Shown here piece after piece: positions 38,400-42,914 of a stretch of DNA of 64,000 nucleotides. The stretch is taken from the NCBI RefSeq assembly GCF_013408535.1, contig NZ_JACBZA010000001.1, positions 5,974,850-6,038,849 on the forward strand, read 5' to 3'. The stretch comes from Actinopolymorpha cephalotaxi. Its GTDB lineage: Bacteria > Actinomycetota > Actinomycetes > Propionibacteriales > Actinopolymorphaceae. The notes beneath the pieces are model-generated. The model was given only the letters and a program-made list of their open reading frames with translations. It searched no databases and had not been told where the DNA came from. A program made the translations under genes and the position numbers. The first letter of the stretch is position 1. Each line of letters starts with the position of its first letter.

Positions 38400-38966
38400 T
38401 CAGCGCCGTGCGGTCAGCTCCACCGTCGTCGGGAGTTCGTCCAACTCGACGGCCTGCCGTACTCGCGCCAGCGCCTGGTCGATCCGGGCCCGGGCCGCTG
38501 CCGGGTCCGCGTCGTGGTCCAGGACCACGTGCAGGTGAAGCCGGGGATGGGCCGCCGAACCGGTCAGCCGGGCGTGGCCGCGATGGAGGTACGGGCTGTC
38601 GGCGAGGTCGTTCTCGATCGCGGCGGTGACCGCCTTGCCGGGGAGGTTGGTCACCCCCTGCCGCGAGTCGGGTTCGAGGCGGAGGTTGCGCAGGCTGTCG
38701 ACCCGGGTCTGGCTGGCCAGCCACCACAGTGCCAGCAGCGCCAGCACGATCGCGACCACGGCGAGCGCGGGCCAGAACCACTTCTGCTCGACGCCGAACC
38801 GGACGGTCGCCGGATCGATGACCGGGCCGGAGGCGGGGCCGAACATGCGGGGAAGAAGGTTCAGTCCACGCGCCAGCCCGGCCGCGCCGGCCAGCAGCAG
38901 GACCAGCCCGACCAGGGCGAGCCCCACTCGGTTCCTCAGGGCGGTGCGACGATTCCTCGTGGTCAT
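38400..38966 (-). CDS. AmaP-like membrane anchor for Asp23 proteins
   Basis: 188 residues: two membrane helices (about 15-35 and 63-84), then a soluble domain of about 100 residues (RVDSLRNLRLEPDSRQGVTNLPGKAVTAAIENDLADSPYLHRGHARLTG, ending DELPTTVELTARR). The build matches AmaP, which in Staphylococcus anchors Asp23 at the membrane. It is the last gene of the Asp23 operon, five bases after the DUF6286 gene. Role inferred from architecture and context. Confidence 0.75.
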   Translation of the reverse strand: MTTRNRRTALRNRVGLALVGLVLLLAGAAGLARGLNLLPRMFGPASGPVIDPATVRFGVEQKWFWPALAVVAIVLALLALWWLASQTRVDSLRNLRLEPDSRQGVTNLPGKAVTAAIENDLADSPYLHRGHARLTGSAAHPRLHLHVVLDHDADPAAARARIDQALARVRQAVELDELPTTVELTARR

Positions 38967-38971
38967 CTGAC

Positions 38972-39610
38972 TCAGTCCTGTCTGCGGCGAACGGTGACCC
39001 GGACGGTCGGGCGACCCGCCATCGGTGCGAGTTCGTCGACGCGTTCGGTGACGGCCGTACGGATCTGCTCGTCCAGGCCAGCTACGTCGCGCAGGGGACT
39101 CGACGCGGCCACCCGCACCTTGCGGGCGCTGACAGTGACCTGAGCCGAGGAGACTCCGGGCACCGACTCCGCCGCGCGGGCGAGGTGCCGGCTCATCCCG
39201 ACGGTCTCGATCCCCATCACGACCTGCGGGTCCGCCGACGTCAGCACCACCGCACGCGGTCGGCCCGGCTTCACCGCGAGGAAGAGCAACACCAGCCCGA
39301 GCAGGATGGCGAGACCGCAGACGGCGAACGGGAGCGAGTCGTTCCAGCGCGTGTCCCGGCCCAGCGAGTTCAGCTGTTCGACCGGCAGCAGCCCGGGCGG
39401 GGACCCGAACAGTCCGCCGATCACCTCGATGGCCACCAGCGCGGCCACCACCGCGAGCACGAGCGCGACGATCGTGGCCGGCAGCACCCGGTGGGGACGG
39501 AACACGTGGGTGGCCCGGCGGAGCGACCTGCGGTCACCCGCTCCGGTGGGCGGCGGGGGCGGGGTGGCCCGGTCGTCCGCCGTACGGATCTCCTCGGTGG
39601 TCGCGCTCAC
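38972..39610 (-). CDS. DUF6286-type membrane protein of the Asp23 operon
   Basis: 212 residues: a cytoplasmic N-terminus, two membrane helices (about 45-70 and 92-113), and an Asp23-like soluble C-terminal domain (SVPGVSSAQVTVSARKVRVAASSPL, then TVRVTVRRRQD). The start overlaps the stop of the Asp23 gene upstream (ATGA). Its co-occurrence with Asp23 genes suggests that it is a membrane partner. Confidence 0.75.
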   Translation of the reverse strand: MSATTEEIRTADDRATPPPPPTGAGDRRSLRRATHVFRPHRVLPATIVALVLAVVAALVAIEVIGGLFGSPPGLLPVEQLNSLGRDTRWNDSLPFAVCGLAILLGLVLLFLAVKPGRPRAVVLTSADPQVVMGIETVGMSRHLARAAESVPGVSSAQVTVSARKVRVAASSPLRDVAGLDEQIRTAVTERVDELAPMAGRPTVRVTVRRRQD

Positions 39611-40047
39611 AACACCCTCCTACCGTGCTCGGCCGGGGGTACGAGGTGCGCGACGTCGATGTCGACCTGGCGCACCTGGATCCCGGTGAGTCCGGAGATC
39701 CGCTCCATGACCTGGGTACGGAGGTTCCGCGTCACCTCGCGTACCGGTGCGGGATAGACCACCGAGACGGTCATGCGTACGGTGGCCAGGTCGCCGTCCA
39801 CCTGGGCGGACACCTGCGGTCCGGAGTCGAGTTCGTCGCGGCCGAGAGGGACGCCGAGCACCCGCCGGCTGGCCCCGCCGGCCTGGTCGACCTCGGCGAG
39901 CGCCTGCCCGGCGATGCGTTCGAGGACCCGGCCGGCGATCTCGGTCCGCCCCCGCGACTCCGGCGGGCCCAGCGTCTCCGTCCGGTCCCCTGTGCCGGAC
40001 GCGGACTCGGGCGGGCGGTCCACCGGCGCCTCGGTGGTGGTGGTCAC
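39607..40047 (-). CDS. Asp23/Gls24-family envelope stress protein
   Basis: 146 residues. Core of the Asp23/Gls24 fold: EIAGRVLERIAGQALAEVDQAGG (strand-helix), VDGDLATVRMTVSVVYPAPVREVTRNLRTQVMERISGLTGIQVRQVDIDVAHL. These proteins form membrane-associated sheets or clouds with AmaP. Its ATG overlaps the DUF2273 gene stop by four bases. Second of three Asp23-like proteins in this operon. Confidence 0.88.
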   Translation of the reverse strand: MTTTTEAPVDRPPESASGTGDRTETLGPPESRGRTEIAGRVLERIAGQALAEVDQAGGASRRVLGVPLGRDELDSGPQVSAQVDGDLATVRMTVSVVYPAPVREVTRNLRTQVMERISGLTGIQVRQVDIDVAHLVPPAEHGRRVL

Positions 40048-40235
40048 GACCGCCTCCGGCTACCCAGCAACGCACCCACGTCCAGGTCACCGGTCATCGC
40101 CCGGCCGACCAGCAGGCCCAGCAGACCGAGCACCGCCACGATCAGGAACGCCGAGAACCCGCCGAACGCTCCGGCGAACCCCACGGCCGTACCGAACGCC
40201 AGGCCGATCATCGGCCACCAGCGCGTCTCATCCAT
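40044..40235 (-). CDS. DUF2273-like small membrane protein
   Basis: 63 residues with two hydrophobic stretches (about 9-26 and 28-45: MIGLAFGTAVGFAGAFGGFSAFLIVAVLGLLGLLVGR). DUF2273 proteins are small membrane partners of Asp23 in Gram-positives. ATG 40235 has AAAGGG about eleven bases upstream; a GTG at 40247 would sit too close. Stop and next start overlap by ATGA. Confidence 0.75.
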   Translation of the reverse strand: MDETRWWPMIGLAFGTAVGFAGAFGGFSAFLIVAVLGLLGLLVGRAMTGDLDVGALLGSRRRS

Positions 40236-40275
40236 CGAAGCCCACACCCTTTCGATCAGTCGTCCCGCGAACGCG

Positions 40276-40557
40276 TCACCGCACCCGGGGTTCCCGGCGG
40301 CGCATTCGTCGCCACCACCGGATCAGAAGCCACAGCCCGCCACGTCGGCGGAACGTGCTCACGTCGTCGGCCCGCGCCGCGTCCGCTCGCGATCCCGGCG
40401 ACGGTGTGCGTGCCGACGGGACGCCGCGGCCGGCACGTATCCGCTCCAGCCCGGCGACGAACGCCGCGTGGTCACCGCCCACGTCCGGGTGGTGCGCACG
40501 GACCCACGCCCGGAACGCACTGCGTTCCGCGCGGGAGGTGGCGGGATCCGCGCTCAT
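40276..40557 (-). CDS. Small protein with DnaJ-like HPD motif
   Basis: 93 residues. Residues 12-42 (FRAWVRAHHPDVGGDHAAFVAGL) resemble the second half of a J-domain: HPD at 23-25 followed by VGGD. The helix before HPD is short and basic, and no Gly/Phe or zinc-binding regions are present. The C-terminus is strongly basic and Trp-rich (LWLLIRWWRRMRRR), suggesting membrane or nucleic-acid contact. ATG overlaps the stop of the upstream gene, so it is a bona fide operon member. Co-chaperone function is a hypothesis. Confidence 0.7.
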   Translation of the reverse strand: MSADPATSRAERSAFRAWVRAHHPDVGGDHAAFVAGLERIRAGRGVPSARTPSPGSRADAARADDVSTFRRRGGLWLLIRWWRRMRRREPRVR

Positions 40558-41027
40558 GCGACGCCCGGACCCGTTCCCTCACCGTCCCTGCGCACCGCGC
40601 CACCAGGCCCCTGTCTCCGGTCGGGCTCCTCGTCACCGATCGCCAGGTCGTCGATCGACACGTCGACCCGGCGACCGGGTACGAGCGGAGTGACCGCCGC
40701 GCGTACCTGCTCGGCGACCTCGGCCAGCGGCCGGCCGTACCGAGCCACCACGGCCACCCGGACCTCCTCGTCGCGTACCGCCACCCCGGACACCGAGCGC
40801 CCGGGAAGGTACGTGGCGATGGGCCCGGCGCTGAGCCGGGCCACGTCCGGGCAGGCCGTGATCGCCGCGGCGATCCGGTCCGCCAACCGGCCCGCGTCGG
40901 TGGACTCGGCGGACTCGGAGCGCTCCGCGGACTCGGCGCCGGCCGGCCCGGCACCGATCGGTTCCGTGCCGAGCGACTCCGTGCCGAGCGACTCCGTGCC
41001 GAGCGGCCCGGCCGTCGGTCGGCTCAC
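40554..41027 (-). CDS. Asp23/Gls24-like protein
   Basis: 157 residues. The N-terminal third is low complexity, with tandem SLGTE units encoded by a 15-bp DNA repeat. The rest is an Asp23-like domain: GRLADRIAAAITACPDVARLS, VSGVAVRDEEVRVAVVARYGRPLAEVAEQVRAAVTPLVPGRRVDVSIDDLAI. GTG start at 41027 overlaps the stop of the first Asp23 gene by GTGA. It resembles the C-terminal domain of the anti-sigma fusion encoded divergently at 42339-42914. Confidence 0.75.
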   Translation of the reverse strand: MSRPTAGPLGTESLGTESLGTEPIGAGPAGAESAERSESAESTDAGRLADRIAAAITACPDVARLSAGPIATYLPGRSVSGVAVRDEEVRVAVVARYGRPLAEVAEQVRAAVTPLVPGRRVDVSIDDLAIGDEEPDRRQGPGGAVRRDGEGTGPGVA

Positions 41028-41515
41028 TGGACCCGGGGCTGCTCGGGGGCGTCGTTGGACTCCTGCTCACCGGGCAGGTGAATGTCGCCGACGGTGATGT
41101 TGACCTCGGTGACCTCGAGCCCGCACAGCTTCTCCACCGCGCCCACGACGTTGCGGCGGATGCCCGCGGCGAGGTCGGGGATGGAGACGCCGTACTCGAC
41201 CACGACGTCCAGGTCGATGGCGGCCTGGCGTTCGCCCACCTCGACCGCGACGCCCTGGGTGACGGTGGACGTCGAGCCACCGATCCGTTCGCGCACCGCG
41301 CCGAACGCGCGGGAGATGCCCGCACCCATGGCGTACACGCCACGGACCTCACGGGTGGCCATGCCGACGATCTTCGCGACGACGGCGTCCGCGATCACGG
41401 TGCGGCCGCCGCTGCCGGCCAGGTCGGTCCCGGAGCGGGTGGCCACCGCACCGGTGGACGGTCCGTTGGACTCGCCGGCGGTGGGGGTCTTCTTGTCGTT
41501 CGTCTGCGCAGTCAT
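41024..41515 (-). CDS. Asp23/Gls24-family envelope stress protein (first gene of operon)
   Basis: 163 residues with a clear Asp23/Gls24 domain: TVIADAVVAKIVGMATREVRGVYAMG, VEVGERQAAIDLDVVVEYGVSIPDLAAGIRRNVVGAVEKLCGLEVTEVNITVGDIHLP. ATG 41515 with GAGAGGCG upstream; a longer frame to 41605 lacks a ribosome site. It heads a seven-gene leftward operon (to 38400) in which nearly every junction overlaps, and it is divergent from an ECF sigma/anti-sigma pair. Confidence 0.92.
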   Translation of the reverse strand: MTAQTNDKKTPTAGESNGPSTGAVATRSGTDLAGSGGRTVIADAVVAKIVGMATREVRGVYAMGAGISRAFGAVRERIGGSTSTVTQGVAVEVGERQAAIDLDVVVEYGVSIPDLAAGIRRNVVGAVEKLCGLEVTEVNITVGDIHLPGEQESNDAPEQPRVQ

Positions 41516-41667
41516 GTTCGCCTCTCGTCCGAGCTTCGACACCACCTGCGTCCGGGTGCGATGCCCGGAGTAGTGCCGTGTCCGTGCGTGTGTTGTGCGT
41601 TCCATACGTCCGTCGAAACCCGTCCGACGAGGCGTTCACCTTGCGCCTGCACGAGGTGACCGCCGCT

Positions 41668-41696
41668 TTGCGACTAATCAGGCGGGCGGATATACC
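41668..41696 (+). promoter_or_regulatory. Vegetative-type promoter for the ECF sigma/anti-sigma pair
   Basis: TTGCGA, 17 bases, then TATACC, reading toward the sigma gene whose GTG is 95 bp downstream. Good match and spacing for a housekeeping (sigma-A/HrdB type) promoter. If used, the transcript would begin near 41703 and the CRP-like site at 41741-41756 would lie in the leader. Confidence 0.5.
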
Positions 41697-41740
41697 TAGC
41701 GAAGATGTTCCTGGGTCCCTTCTCCTCACGGGGGTGTGCA

Positions 41741-41756
41741 CGTGATCTGGATCACA
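41741..41756. promoter_or_regulatory. CRP/GlxR-like operator
   Basis: GTGATCTGGATCAC: GTGA, six bases, TCAC, flanked by C and A, with perfect inner symmetry. Differs from the TGTGA-N6-TCACA consensus only at the first base. Located 35 bp before the GTG of the ECF sigma gene and downstream of the predicted promoter, where it would act as a repressor block, or as an activator site for another promoter. Confidence 0.5.
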
Positions 41757-41790
41757 GTCATCCGGACGCCCCCGGTGGCGGGGTGACCGG

Positions 41791-42348
41791 GTGACGACGT
41801 CGGCGCCCCCCGACGAGACCCTGGTGGCGCGTGCGCGGATCGGTGACGCGACCGCGTTCGAGCAGCTCGTACGCCGCTACTCCGGTCCGGCCTACCGGAT
41901 CGCGCTGCGCATCCTGGGCGACGCCGACACGGCACAGGACGTGGCTCAGGAGGCGTTCATCACGGCTTGGCGCCGCCTCGACCGGATCCGCGTGGACCAG
42001 GCCTTTGCCGCCTGGCTCTACCGCATCGTCACCACCGCTGCTCTCCAGGCGGCGCGGAGCCGCCGCGCCCACCCCGATGCCGAACTCGATCATGAACATG
42101 TCAGGCTTCCGCTCTCGGCTTCCGGCCAGCCGGAGCAGCAGGTCCTCGTCGCCGACCTGCTCGCCGCACTTCGAGCGGCCCTCGGGCTGCTCACGCCGGA
42201 GCAACGGGCATGCTGGGTGTTACGAGAGTTGGAGGGGCTCTCCTATGACGAGATCGCCGAGGTCACGGGAATCGGACCCGATGCGGTTCGGGGACGCATC
42301 CATCGCGCCCGCGTCCGCCTCGCCAGGGAGCTGAAACCATGGCGATAG
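41791..42348 (+). CDS. ECF-type RNA polymerase sigma factor
   Basis: 185 residues. Region 2 at about 15-85 (DATAFEQLVRRYSGPAYRIALRILGDADTAQDVAQEAFITAWRRL and FAAWLYRIVTTAALQAARSRR), region 4 at about 125-180 (LLTPEQRACWVLRELEGLSYDEIAEVTGIGPDAVRGRIHRARVRL). GTG 41791 is set by GGCGGGG upstream. The gene overlaps the anti-sigma/Asp23 gene by ten bases, the classic arrangement of a sigma factor with its inhibitor. The divergent Asp23 operon is the obvious candidate target. Confidence 0.92.
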   Translation: MTTSAPPDETLVARARIGDATAFEQLVRRYSGPAYRIALRILGDADTAQDVAQEAFITAWRRLDRIRVDQAFAAWLYRIVTTAALQAARSRRAHPDAELDHEHVRLPLSASGQPEQQVLVADLLAALRAALGLLTPEQRACWVLRELEGLSYDEIAEVTGIGPDAVRGRIHRARVRLARELKPWR

Positions 42349-42914
42349 ATCAGCCCAACGGGAACACTCCGCCGCCGCCCGGCCAGGACCGGCGCGAGGA
42401 GGTGCTCCCGTGCGGCCGCGACATGGGGACGGTGTACGACCACCTCACCGACGGCGGCTTGGACGACCACGAGTTGTCGTGCCCGCACTGCCGGGGCGCC
42501 GCGGCGGAGTTCGCACCGGTGCTGCAGGCCGCGGAACTCCTGCGGGACGAGCCCGCCGAGCCGCCTCCGGGGTTCGTCGACTCGATCATGGCCCGCATCC
42601 ACGCCACCCGCAGCCGAAGCTGGCGGTTGTCGCTACCCGCCGAACACCCCCTGCACCTCGCCATCACCGAACACGCGGCCGCGACCGTGCTGGCCGCCGC
42701 GGCGAGCGAGGTCGCGGGCGTCACCGTCAACCGCTGTCACTTCCCCGAACGCGGCGACCCGACGAGGCTGCAGATCAACCTCACCCTGCGCCAGCGGACA
42801 CCGGTGTCACAGATCGTGGAACGTGTCCGGAAGGCGGTGCGCTCGGCCGCCCGGCGGCAGCTCGGACTGGAGCTGAACGCGATCGACGTCCGGGTGGACG
42901 ACATCCACCTGTGA
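42339..42914 (+). CDS. Anti-sigma factor candidate: zinc-binding ZAS-like motif fused to Asp23-like domain
   Basis: 191 residues. Residues 30-51 (TVYDHLTDGGLDDHELSCPHC) contain His44-x3-Cys48-x2-Cys51, the zinc-binding motif of ZAS anti-sigma factors. No membrane helix is visible. Residues about 100-191 form an Asp23-like domain (AAATVLAAAASEVAGVTVNRCHF, RLQINLTLRQRTPVSQIVERVRKAVRSAARRQLGLELNAIDVRVDDIHL); the ending VDDIHL parallels VGDIHLP of the first Asp23 protein. The overlap with the sigma gene supports a sigma/anti-sigma pair. Inference: the Asp23 domain links sigma release to the state of the membrane-attached Asp23 layer. Confidence 0.78.
   Translation: MAIDQPNGNTPPPPGQDRREEVLPCGRDMGTVYDHLTDGGLDDHELSCPHCRGAAAEFAPVLQAAELLRDEPAEPPPGFVDSIMARIHATRSRSWRLSLPAEHPLHLAITEHAAATVLAAAASEVAGVTVNRCHFPERGDPTRLQINLTLRQRTPVSQIVERVRKAVRSAARRQLGLELNAIDVRVDDIHL

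Follow-up and report, generated by a model that had tools for sequence, protein, structure and literature searches.

A candidate sigma/anti-sigma control loop with an Asp23-type domain beside an Asp23/AmaP-like operon in Actinopolymorpha cephalotaxi

Asp23 proteins line the membrane of Gram-positive bacteria. The Asp23 operon of Staphylococcus aureus is under the control of SigB, and no anti-sigma factor with an Asp23 domain is known to us in this species. RsrA is a soluble anti-sigma factor of the zinc anti-sigma (ZAS) type. In the passages of PMC6954212 on Asp23, the S. aureus protein forms oligomers and AmaP tethers it to the membrane, and the molecular function of Asp23 proteins is called unclear. 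In a Curtobacterium, drying raised Asp23/Gls24 genes and two unspecified sigma factors, a response not tied to the gene pair studied here (PMC12029717, in part). According to passages of a 2022 review (PMC8999054, after Casas-Pastor 2021), the extracytoplasmic function (ECF) sigma factor groups ECF286 and ECF292 adjoin soluble Asp23-family proteins, which are predicted anti-sigma factors. Here, a stretch of 64,000 nucleotides from Actinopolymorpha cephalotaxi (the window) was analysed for an ECF sigma factor gene that overlaps the gene of a 191-residue partner protein, the pair being divergent from a seven-gene Asp23/AmaP-like operon (Table 1). The partner unites a ZAS motif with an Asp23-type domain in a single protein, as an initial annotation of the window had proposed; the motif and a profile match by hhalign both bore this out. 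The genes, their domains, the conserved neighbourhood and the promoter pattern in relatives point to a dedicated loop controlling an Asp23/AmaP-type membrane layer, in which the partner would bind the sigma factor, the sigma factor would recognise the promoter, and the layer itself would probably gate the response. This reading is regarded as moderately probable.

The likeness to ECF286 and ECF292 lies in an actinobacterial ECF sigma factor beside a soluble Asp23-family protein predicted to be an anti-sigma factor, a comparison made by the neighbouring gene only (PMC8999054, in part). An adjacent protein of this family was recognised in the window by profile comparison, the protein alone staying under the Pfam cut-off. 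The idea of an Asp23-family anti-sigma factor is not wholly new, and the remark of the initial annotation that it knew of no such description was too strong, since predicted ones beside ECF286 and ECF292 are reported in those passages (PMC8999054). The same passages name neither a zinc module on the Asp23-family protein nor an Asp23/AmaP operon, and are silent on a promoter, on zinc loss and on a fusion (PMC8999054); full-text literature searches for Asp23 with sigma or anti-sigma factors gave no title or abstract on the zinc–Asp23 architecture, the promoter, zinc loss or the fusion. The soluble ZAS anti-sigma factors ChrR and RshA resemble the window partner in carrying a zinc-ligand anti-sigma motif in a soluble protein. 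The second domain of ChrR is cupin-like in the review's passage on it (PMC8999054), whereas the window partner has an Asp23-type domain in its place, homologous to proteins that the adjacent operon encodes. The operon recalls that of S. aureus in combining Asp23 with an AmaP-type membrane anchor. An anti-sigma factor with an Asp23-type domain would offer a direct handle on whether bacteria sense the state of the layer, and pairs of the window type could show what the Asp23 anti-sigma factors predicted for ECF286 and ECF292 do.

Asp23-type domain and zinc module of the partner

Homologues were drawn from a class sample of 296 genomes, 36 of which were matched in a first search with the window protein. 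Through class and family searches, 38 regions were fetched, and 26 proteins, the window's included, formed the alignment. Six ZAS-type proteins that by eye ended in a membrane helix and were without the Asp23 domain (L064, L066, L068, L070, L072 and L073) were excluded, as were L052, L053, L056, L062, L067, L071 and L074, which had long or unclear frames, a fusion, or a short partner or none.

The Asp23-like domain of the partner was confirmed by profile–profile comparison. In hhalign, the partner profile matched Asp23 protein 1 of the operon at 97.5% over 95 columns, denoting homology over the whole domain; the values were 97.2% for Asp23 protein 3, 68% for the DUF6286 protein and 0.1% for the sigma factor, which served as the negative control. 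Pfam Asp23 (PF03780) was matched at E ≤ 0.01 by 19 of the 26 aligned homologues, the window protein counted (best E 8.4e-9), and homologue L061 exceeded the 28-bit cut-off with 36.3 bits. The domain was modelled from an alignment that included the window's Asp23 paralogues, with a predicted local distance difference test (pLDDT) value of 80.4, and the whole protein from one that omitted them, with a value of 69.5; both models had the order helix–strand–strand–helix–strand. No solved structure of an Asp23 relative was found by sequence for a comparison of folds, and Foldseek gave no match for either model at E ≤ 0.001. VIA-align aligned the C-terminal domain (CTD) of MamM and PrgK with Z values of 9–10, and the ring domains of EscJ with 8.4–8.8 and of FliF with 7.1–7.7. 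This resemblance of the models possibly reflects no more than a shared fold and is not read as a sign of kinship or function, but several of these proteins assemble at membranes. By eye, a second Asp23-like domain was seen at the end of the partner-type gene product at loci L075–L080 (four f21 genomes).

The motif H44-x3-C48-x2-C51 named in the initial annotation was present, and C25 was found in addition; the window protein therefore carries H-x3-C-x2-C preceded by a Cys or His, the motif by which the ZAS/ASD family is recognised. Of the 25 homologues aligned with the window protein, 20 shared its full ligand set. Weak profile matches, covering the ZAS part only, were obtained to RsiW (5wuq, E 0.0083) and to RslA (3hug, E 0.0077). 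The window protein scored 25 bits against NCBIfam antisigma, which has a cut-off of 100, and nine of the 26 homologues matched this family at E ≤ 0.01. An hhalign value of 94% was given by ZAS-type proteins with a membrane end, although these came from the same homologue search. The VIA-align listing for the full-protein model contained no structure of an anti-sigma domain, which according to the tool is no evidence of absence.

The zinc ligands were gone in 4 of the 26 aligned homologues, and the His alone was missing in one more. The partners of family f38 (L060, L061, L063, L065 and, by eye, L086) had lost most zinc ligands and kept both protein parts. At seven f22 loci (L082–L084 and L087–L090), the sigma gene was followed by a shorter partner that had the Asp23-type domain and was without the zinc motif; by eye, short partners without the motif also followed the sigma gene at L091, L092, L094 and L095 (f2), L102 (f6) and L104 (f35). 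Moreover, a fusion frame (L053, 8103–9080, minus strand) encoded sigma regions 2 and 4 followed by an Asp23/DUF6286-type domain, again without the zinc motif. A second, stop-free fusion in the same genus (L142) was 71% identical to it over residues 1–318, and fusions were thus present in two of the four genus genomes searched. The Asp23-type domain and its neighbourhood are retained where the zinc ligands are lost, in several lineages.

These variants bear on a rival reading, a switch like that of RsrA and ChrR that answers to redox state or zinc, in which oxidation of C25, H44, C48 and C51 or loss of zinc would free the sigma factor and the Asp23 domain would only localise or stabilise the protein. 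The complete C-H-C-C set in 21 of the 26 homologues and the weak matches to RsiW and 3hug fit such a switch, and soluble ZAS anti-sigma factors normally answer oxidative stress in the pertinent passages of PMC8999054. However, the ligand losses count against it, and so do the zinc-free short partners and the fusion frame, which keep the Asp23-type domain and the neighbourhood. Layer sensing was favoured over a pure redox switch because the zinc module varies while the Asp23-type domain stays, and because the main visible target of the sigma factor codes for membrane anchors alongside relatives of that domain. A switch of this type is considered unlikely.

Gene neighbourhood and promoter pattern in relatives

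A single named relative was found, A. rutila, with 91% identity; it is also among the same-genus genomes of the set (G003). When the 296 genomes were searched with the 26-protein profile, 27 of them gave matches above 100 bits, 29 in all. A canonical Asp23 gene lay within 3.5 kb of 27 of these 29 strong homologues, 17 times divergent and 10 times on the same strand; no listed Asp23 gene was near the other two (G204 and G218). The arrangement thus recurs in other actinobacteria, a hint that cells may monitor the lining of their own membrane. Asp23 was present in 109 of the 296 genomes, including all 27 with strong homologues, and 33 weaker matches picked by hand were all within 1,000 nucleotides (nt) of an Asp23 gene, 32 of them divergent; six of the fetched ones (L075–L080) had no sigma gene in between. 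Sigma gene, partner and Asp23 co-occurred in 39 of the 55 stretches examined. Within the window's family (8 genomes), the four genomes with Asp23 were the same four that had the anti-sigma gene. The conserved neighbourhood, this shared presence and the promoter conserved in relatives upheld the link between the pair and the Asp23 operon. A plasmid search with the partner protein gave zero matches. Among the 26 pairs, with gene starts picked by eye, sigma and partner genes overlapped by 10 nt in 19, by 4 nt in six and by 1 nt in one; the two are probably translationally coupled through this overlap, judging from the sequence.

The promoter pattern was sought in 25 divergent spacers, with one of the four Actinopolymorpha retained. 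The commonest gapped pair of 4-mers, GTGA-N18-TGTC, occurred in 15 of the 25 spacers (maximum of 7 in 40 shuffled sets), and CGTGA[CG]-N14-17-GTGTC faced the Asp23 operon in 15 of the 25 and the opposite way in two. Many relatives thus have a conserved putative promoter, CGTGA[C/G]-N15/16-GTGTC, directed toward the Asp23 operon, and in some of them the sigma gene has one as well. With a leave-family-out matrix, no more than 1 shuffle in 100 equalled the best Asp23-facing site of the non-Actinopolymorpha spacers, except in L065 (7 of 100). Four f21 spacers (L049, L050, L056 and L062) had a second such site, facing the sigma gene. The 480 nt ahead of the Asp23 core were then scanned at a threshold score of at least 14, which was reached upstream of Asp23 at 22 of the 47 loci that had a sigma gene, at 2 of the 39 that had none and in 15 of 1000 random segments. 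Upstream of the sigma gene, 6 of the 47 loci reached it, three of which (L040, L042 and L059) were outside the training set. At L123, the second Asp23 operon of genome G175, the score was 16.9 with no sigma gene in the stretch; the pair lies elsewhere in that genome, which fits control in trans of a small regulon. The exact pattern CGTGAS-N15/16-GTGTCYWA was searched in 22 chosen genomes, nearly all known to have the pair, and occurred 17 times, 13 of them at pair loci, with one occurrence in the reversed control. Its position at pair loci was to be expected because the pattern was drawn from such loci; the informative result is its rarity elsewhere. Two of the four off-locus hits were examined as regulon members (L138 and L139) and were rejected, as both fall within open reading frames and are probably chance matches. 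At L093 (G085), the weak variant found at L092 of this genome recurred, with a score of 3.1.

In the window, the putative site ahead of the Asp23 operon appears to be the relatives' promoter with a drifted -10 element, because both halves are invariant in the four Actinopolymorpha genomes and the spacing to the Crp-type palindrome is kept. A palindrome of this type lay 10 bp (once 9 bp) upstream of the -35 element in 13 of 28 divergent spacers, which came from four families and included the four of Actinopolymorpha, and the pattern suggests that a Crp-type regulator may jointly control the operon. A rival explanation is that in A. cephalotaxi the sigma factor acts on genes elsewhere, that transcription of the Asp23 operon starts from an ordinary promoter or one driven by Crp, and that the neighbourhood is historical. 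Such an account agrees with the diverged -10 element in the four Actinopolymorpha and with their well-conserved Crp-type site. It is opposed by the -35 element and its 10-bp spacing from the Crp-type site, kept in all four, and by the joint presence or absence of both genes across the 8 family genomes, and it is thought rather improbable, slightly more so than the redox switch.

Proposed control of the Asp23 layer

In the proposed loop, a soluble partner combining the ZAS module and the Asp23-type domain would be made together with the ECF sigma factor and would hold it. Free sigma factor would drive transcription of the divergent Asp23 operon; in some relatives it would also transcribe its own gene. 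The Asp23 domain of the partner would sense the layer, most likely through the homotypic Asp23/AmaP/DUF6286 contacts used by the operon products. Anchor sites left empty by membrane growth, envelope damage or drying would draw the partner away from the sigma factor, and the partner would be back on the sigma factor once the sites were filled by Asp23. A more specific form, a product-sensing homeostat, is offered tentatively, at somewhat less than even chances. Here, the anti-sigma factor would be a decoy copy of the subunit that is made from the operon under its control: empty anchors would pull it off the sigma factor, Asp23 would be made until the sites were full, and the decoy would then return. 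The zinc module would be an optional holder that depends on lineage, and the sigma fusion would be the extreme form.

Several results weigh against the proposed loop. At the level of the protein, the window partner alone scored 23.8 bits against Pfam Asp23 (E 6e-5), under the 28-bit cut-off, and the 26 homologues matched three families, none of them an anti-sigma or zinc-finger family of Pfam. At L075–L080, an Asp23-domain gene stood divergent beside the Asp23 operon with no intervening sigma gene, and the counts across genomes ignore relatedness. The window promoter scored 2.1, a value equalled by 13 of 100 shuffles, its -35 element being perfect and its -10 element diverged; in the window and three congeners the -10 half was off the consensus, and 7 to 14 of 100 shuffles were equally good. 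The exact window site was single-copy in its own genome, and near-copies were no more frequent there (31 and 24 hits) than in the reversed control (29 and 24), so that no wider regulon was visible. The training set of the matrix included 19 of the 47 sigma loci (17 of the 22 hits), and only 5 of the 28 untrained sigma loci reached 14 toward Asp23. The Asp23 operon of G109 (L109) had a site of 14.6, and no sigma gene was found in the fetched stretch; the exact pattern was missing from 9 of the 22 chosen genomes. Furthermore, one Asp23 gene of S. venezuelae went down, not up, after ethanol shock in the passage of PMC9769785 on this response, which is not tied to the pair.

A further explanation takes the partner to be a co-factor or adaptor that places the sigma factor at the Asp23 layer or helps it, rather than an anti-sigma factor. 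The direct sigma–Asp23 fusion without a zinc module in two of four genomes of one genus and the short partners without the module could be read in this way. The full ZAS ligands of the window protein and most of its aligned homologues speak against it, as does the suggestion, in passages of PMC8999054, of fused anti-sigma domains for ECF48, ECF52 and ECF53; the adaptor is given a low probability, the lowest of the readings weighed here. Chance or misannotation of the pair was ruled out because the arrangement is conserved in other genomes.

Features of the locus

The coordinates are collected in Table 1; those of the sigma and partner genes agree with the initial annotation.

Table 1. Features of the sigma/partner pair, the divergent operon and the spacer between them, in window coordinates.
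Feature	Coordinates	Strand	Evidence or remark
ECF sigma factor gene, GTG start	41791..42348	+	Pfam Sigma70_r2 E 4.9e-16, Sigma70_r4_2 E 2e-15
Asp23-domain anti-sigma candidate, 191 amino acids	42339..42914	+	10-nt overlap with the sigma gene
ZAS core Cys25, His44, Cys48, Cys51	42411..42491	+	CHCC in 21/26 aligned homologues
C-terminal Asp23-type domain, residues 92–191, helix–strand–strand–helix–strand	42612..42911	+	hhalign 97.5% to Asp23
Crp-type palindrome TGTGATCCAGATCACG	41741..41756	-	10 bp upstream of the -35 element
Putative -35 element CGTGAG, Asp23 operon promoter	41725..41730	-	Invariant in four Actinopolymorpha genomes; equals the relatives' -35
Putative -10 element ACATCTT, N16 from the -35	41702..41708	-	Diverged from the relatives' GTGTC; invariant in four Actinopolymorpha
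Asp23 protein 1	41024..41515	-	Pfam Asp23 101 bits
Asp23-like protein 2, weak	40554..41027	-	Asp23 E 0.018, Spore_YhcN_YlaJ E 1.2e-4, both under cut-off
93-amino-acid gene	40276..40557	-	Pfam/NCBIfam: nothing at E ≤ 1; same-place homologues in three congeners
Small membrane protein, DUF2273-like	40044..40247	-	DUF2273 E 0.012, under cut-off
Asp23 protein 3	39607..40047	-	Pfam Asp23 47 bits
DUF6286 membrane protein	38972..39610	-	Pfam DUF6286 92 bits; AmaP 31 bits, under cut-off
AmaP-like membrane anchor	38400..38966	-	NCBIfam anchor_AmaP 42 bits, cut-off 55

The operon had been described as encoding three Asp23-like proteins, DUF2273, DUF6286 and an AmaP-like anchor. Two of the Asp23 proteins were clear, and the DUF6286 gene was recovered; the remaining Asp23-like protein (protein 2) and DUF2273 stayed under their cut-offs, so that for these genes the description is fair, though in part weakly backed. 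The anchor did match anchor_AmaP, at a score below the family's cut-off. The annotated start of Asp23 protein 1 at 41515 agrees with A. rutila, and an alternative in-frame ATG lies at 41605.

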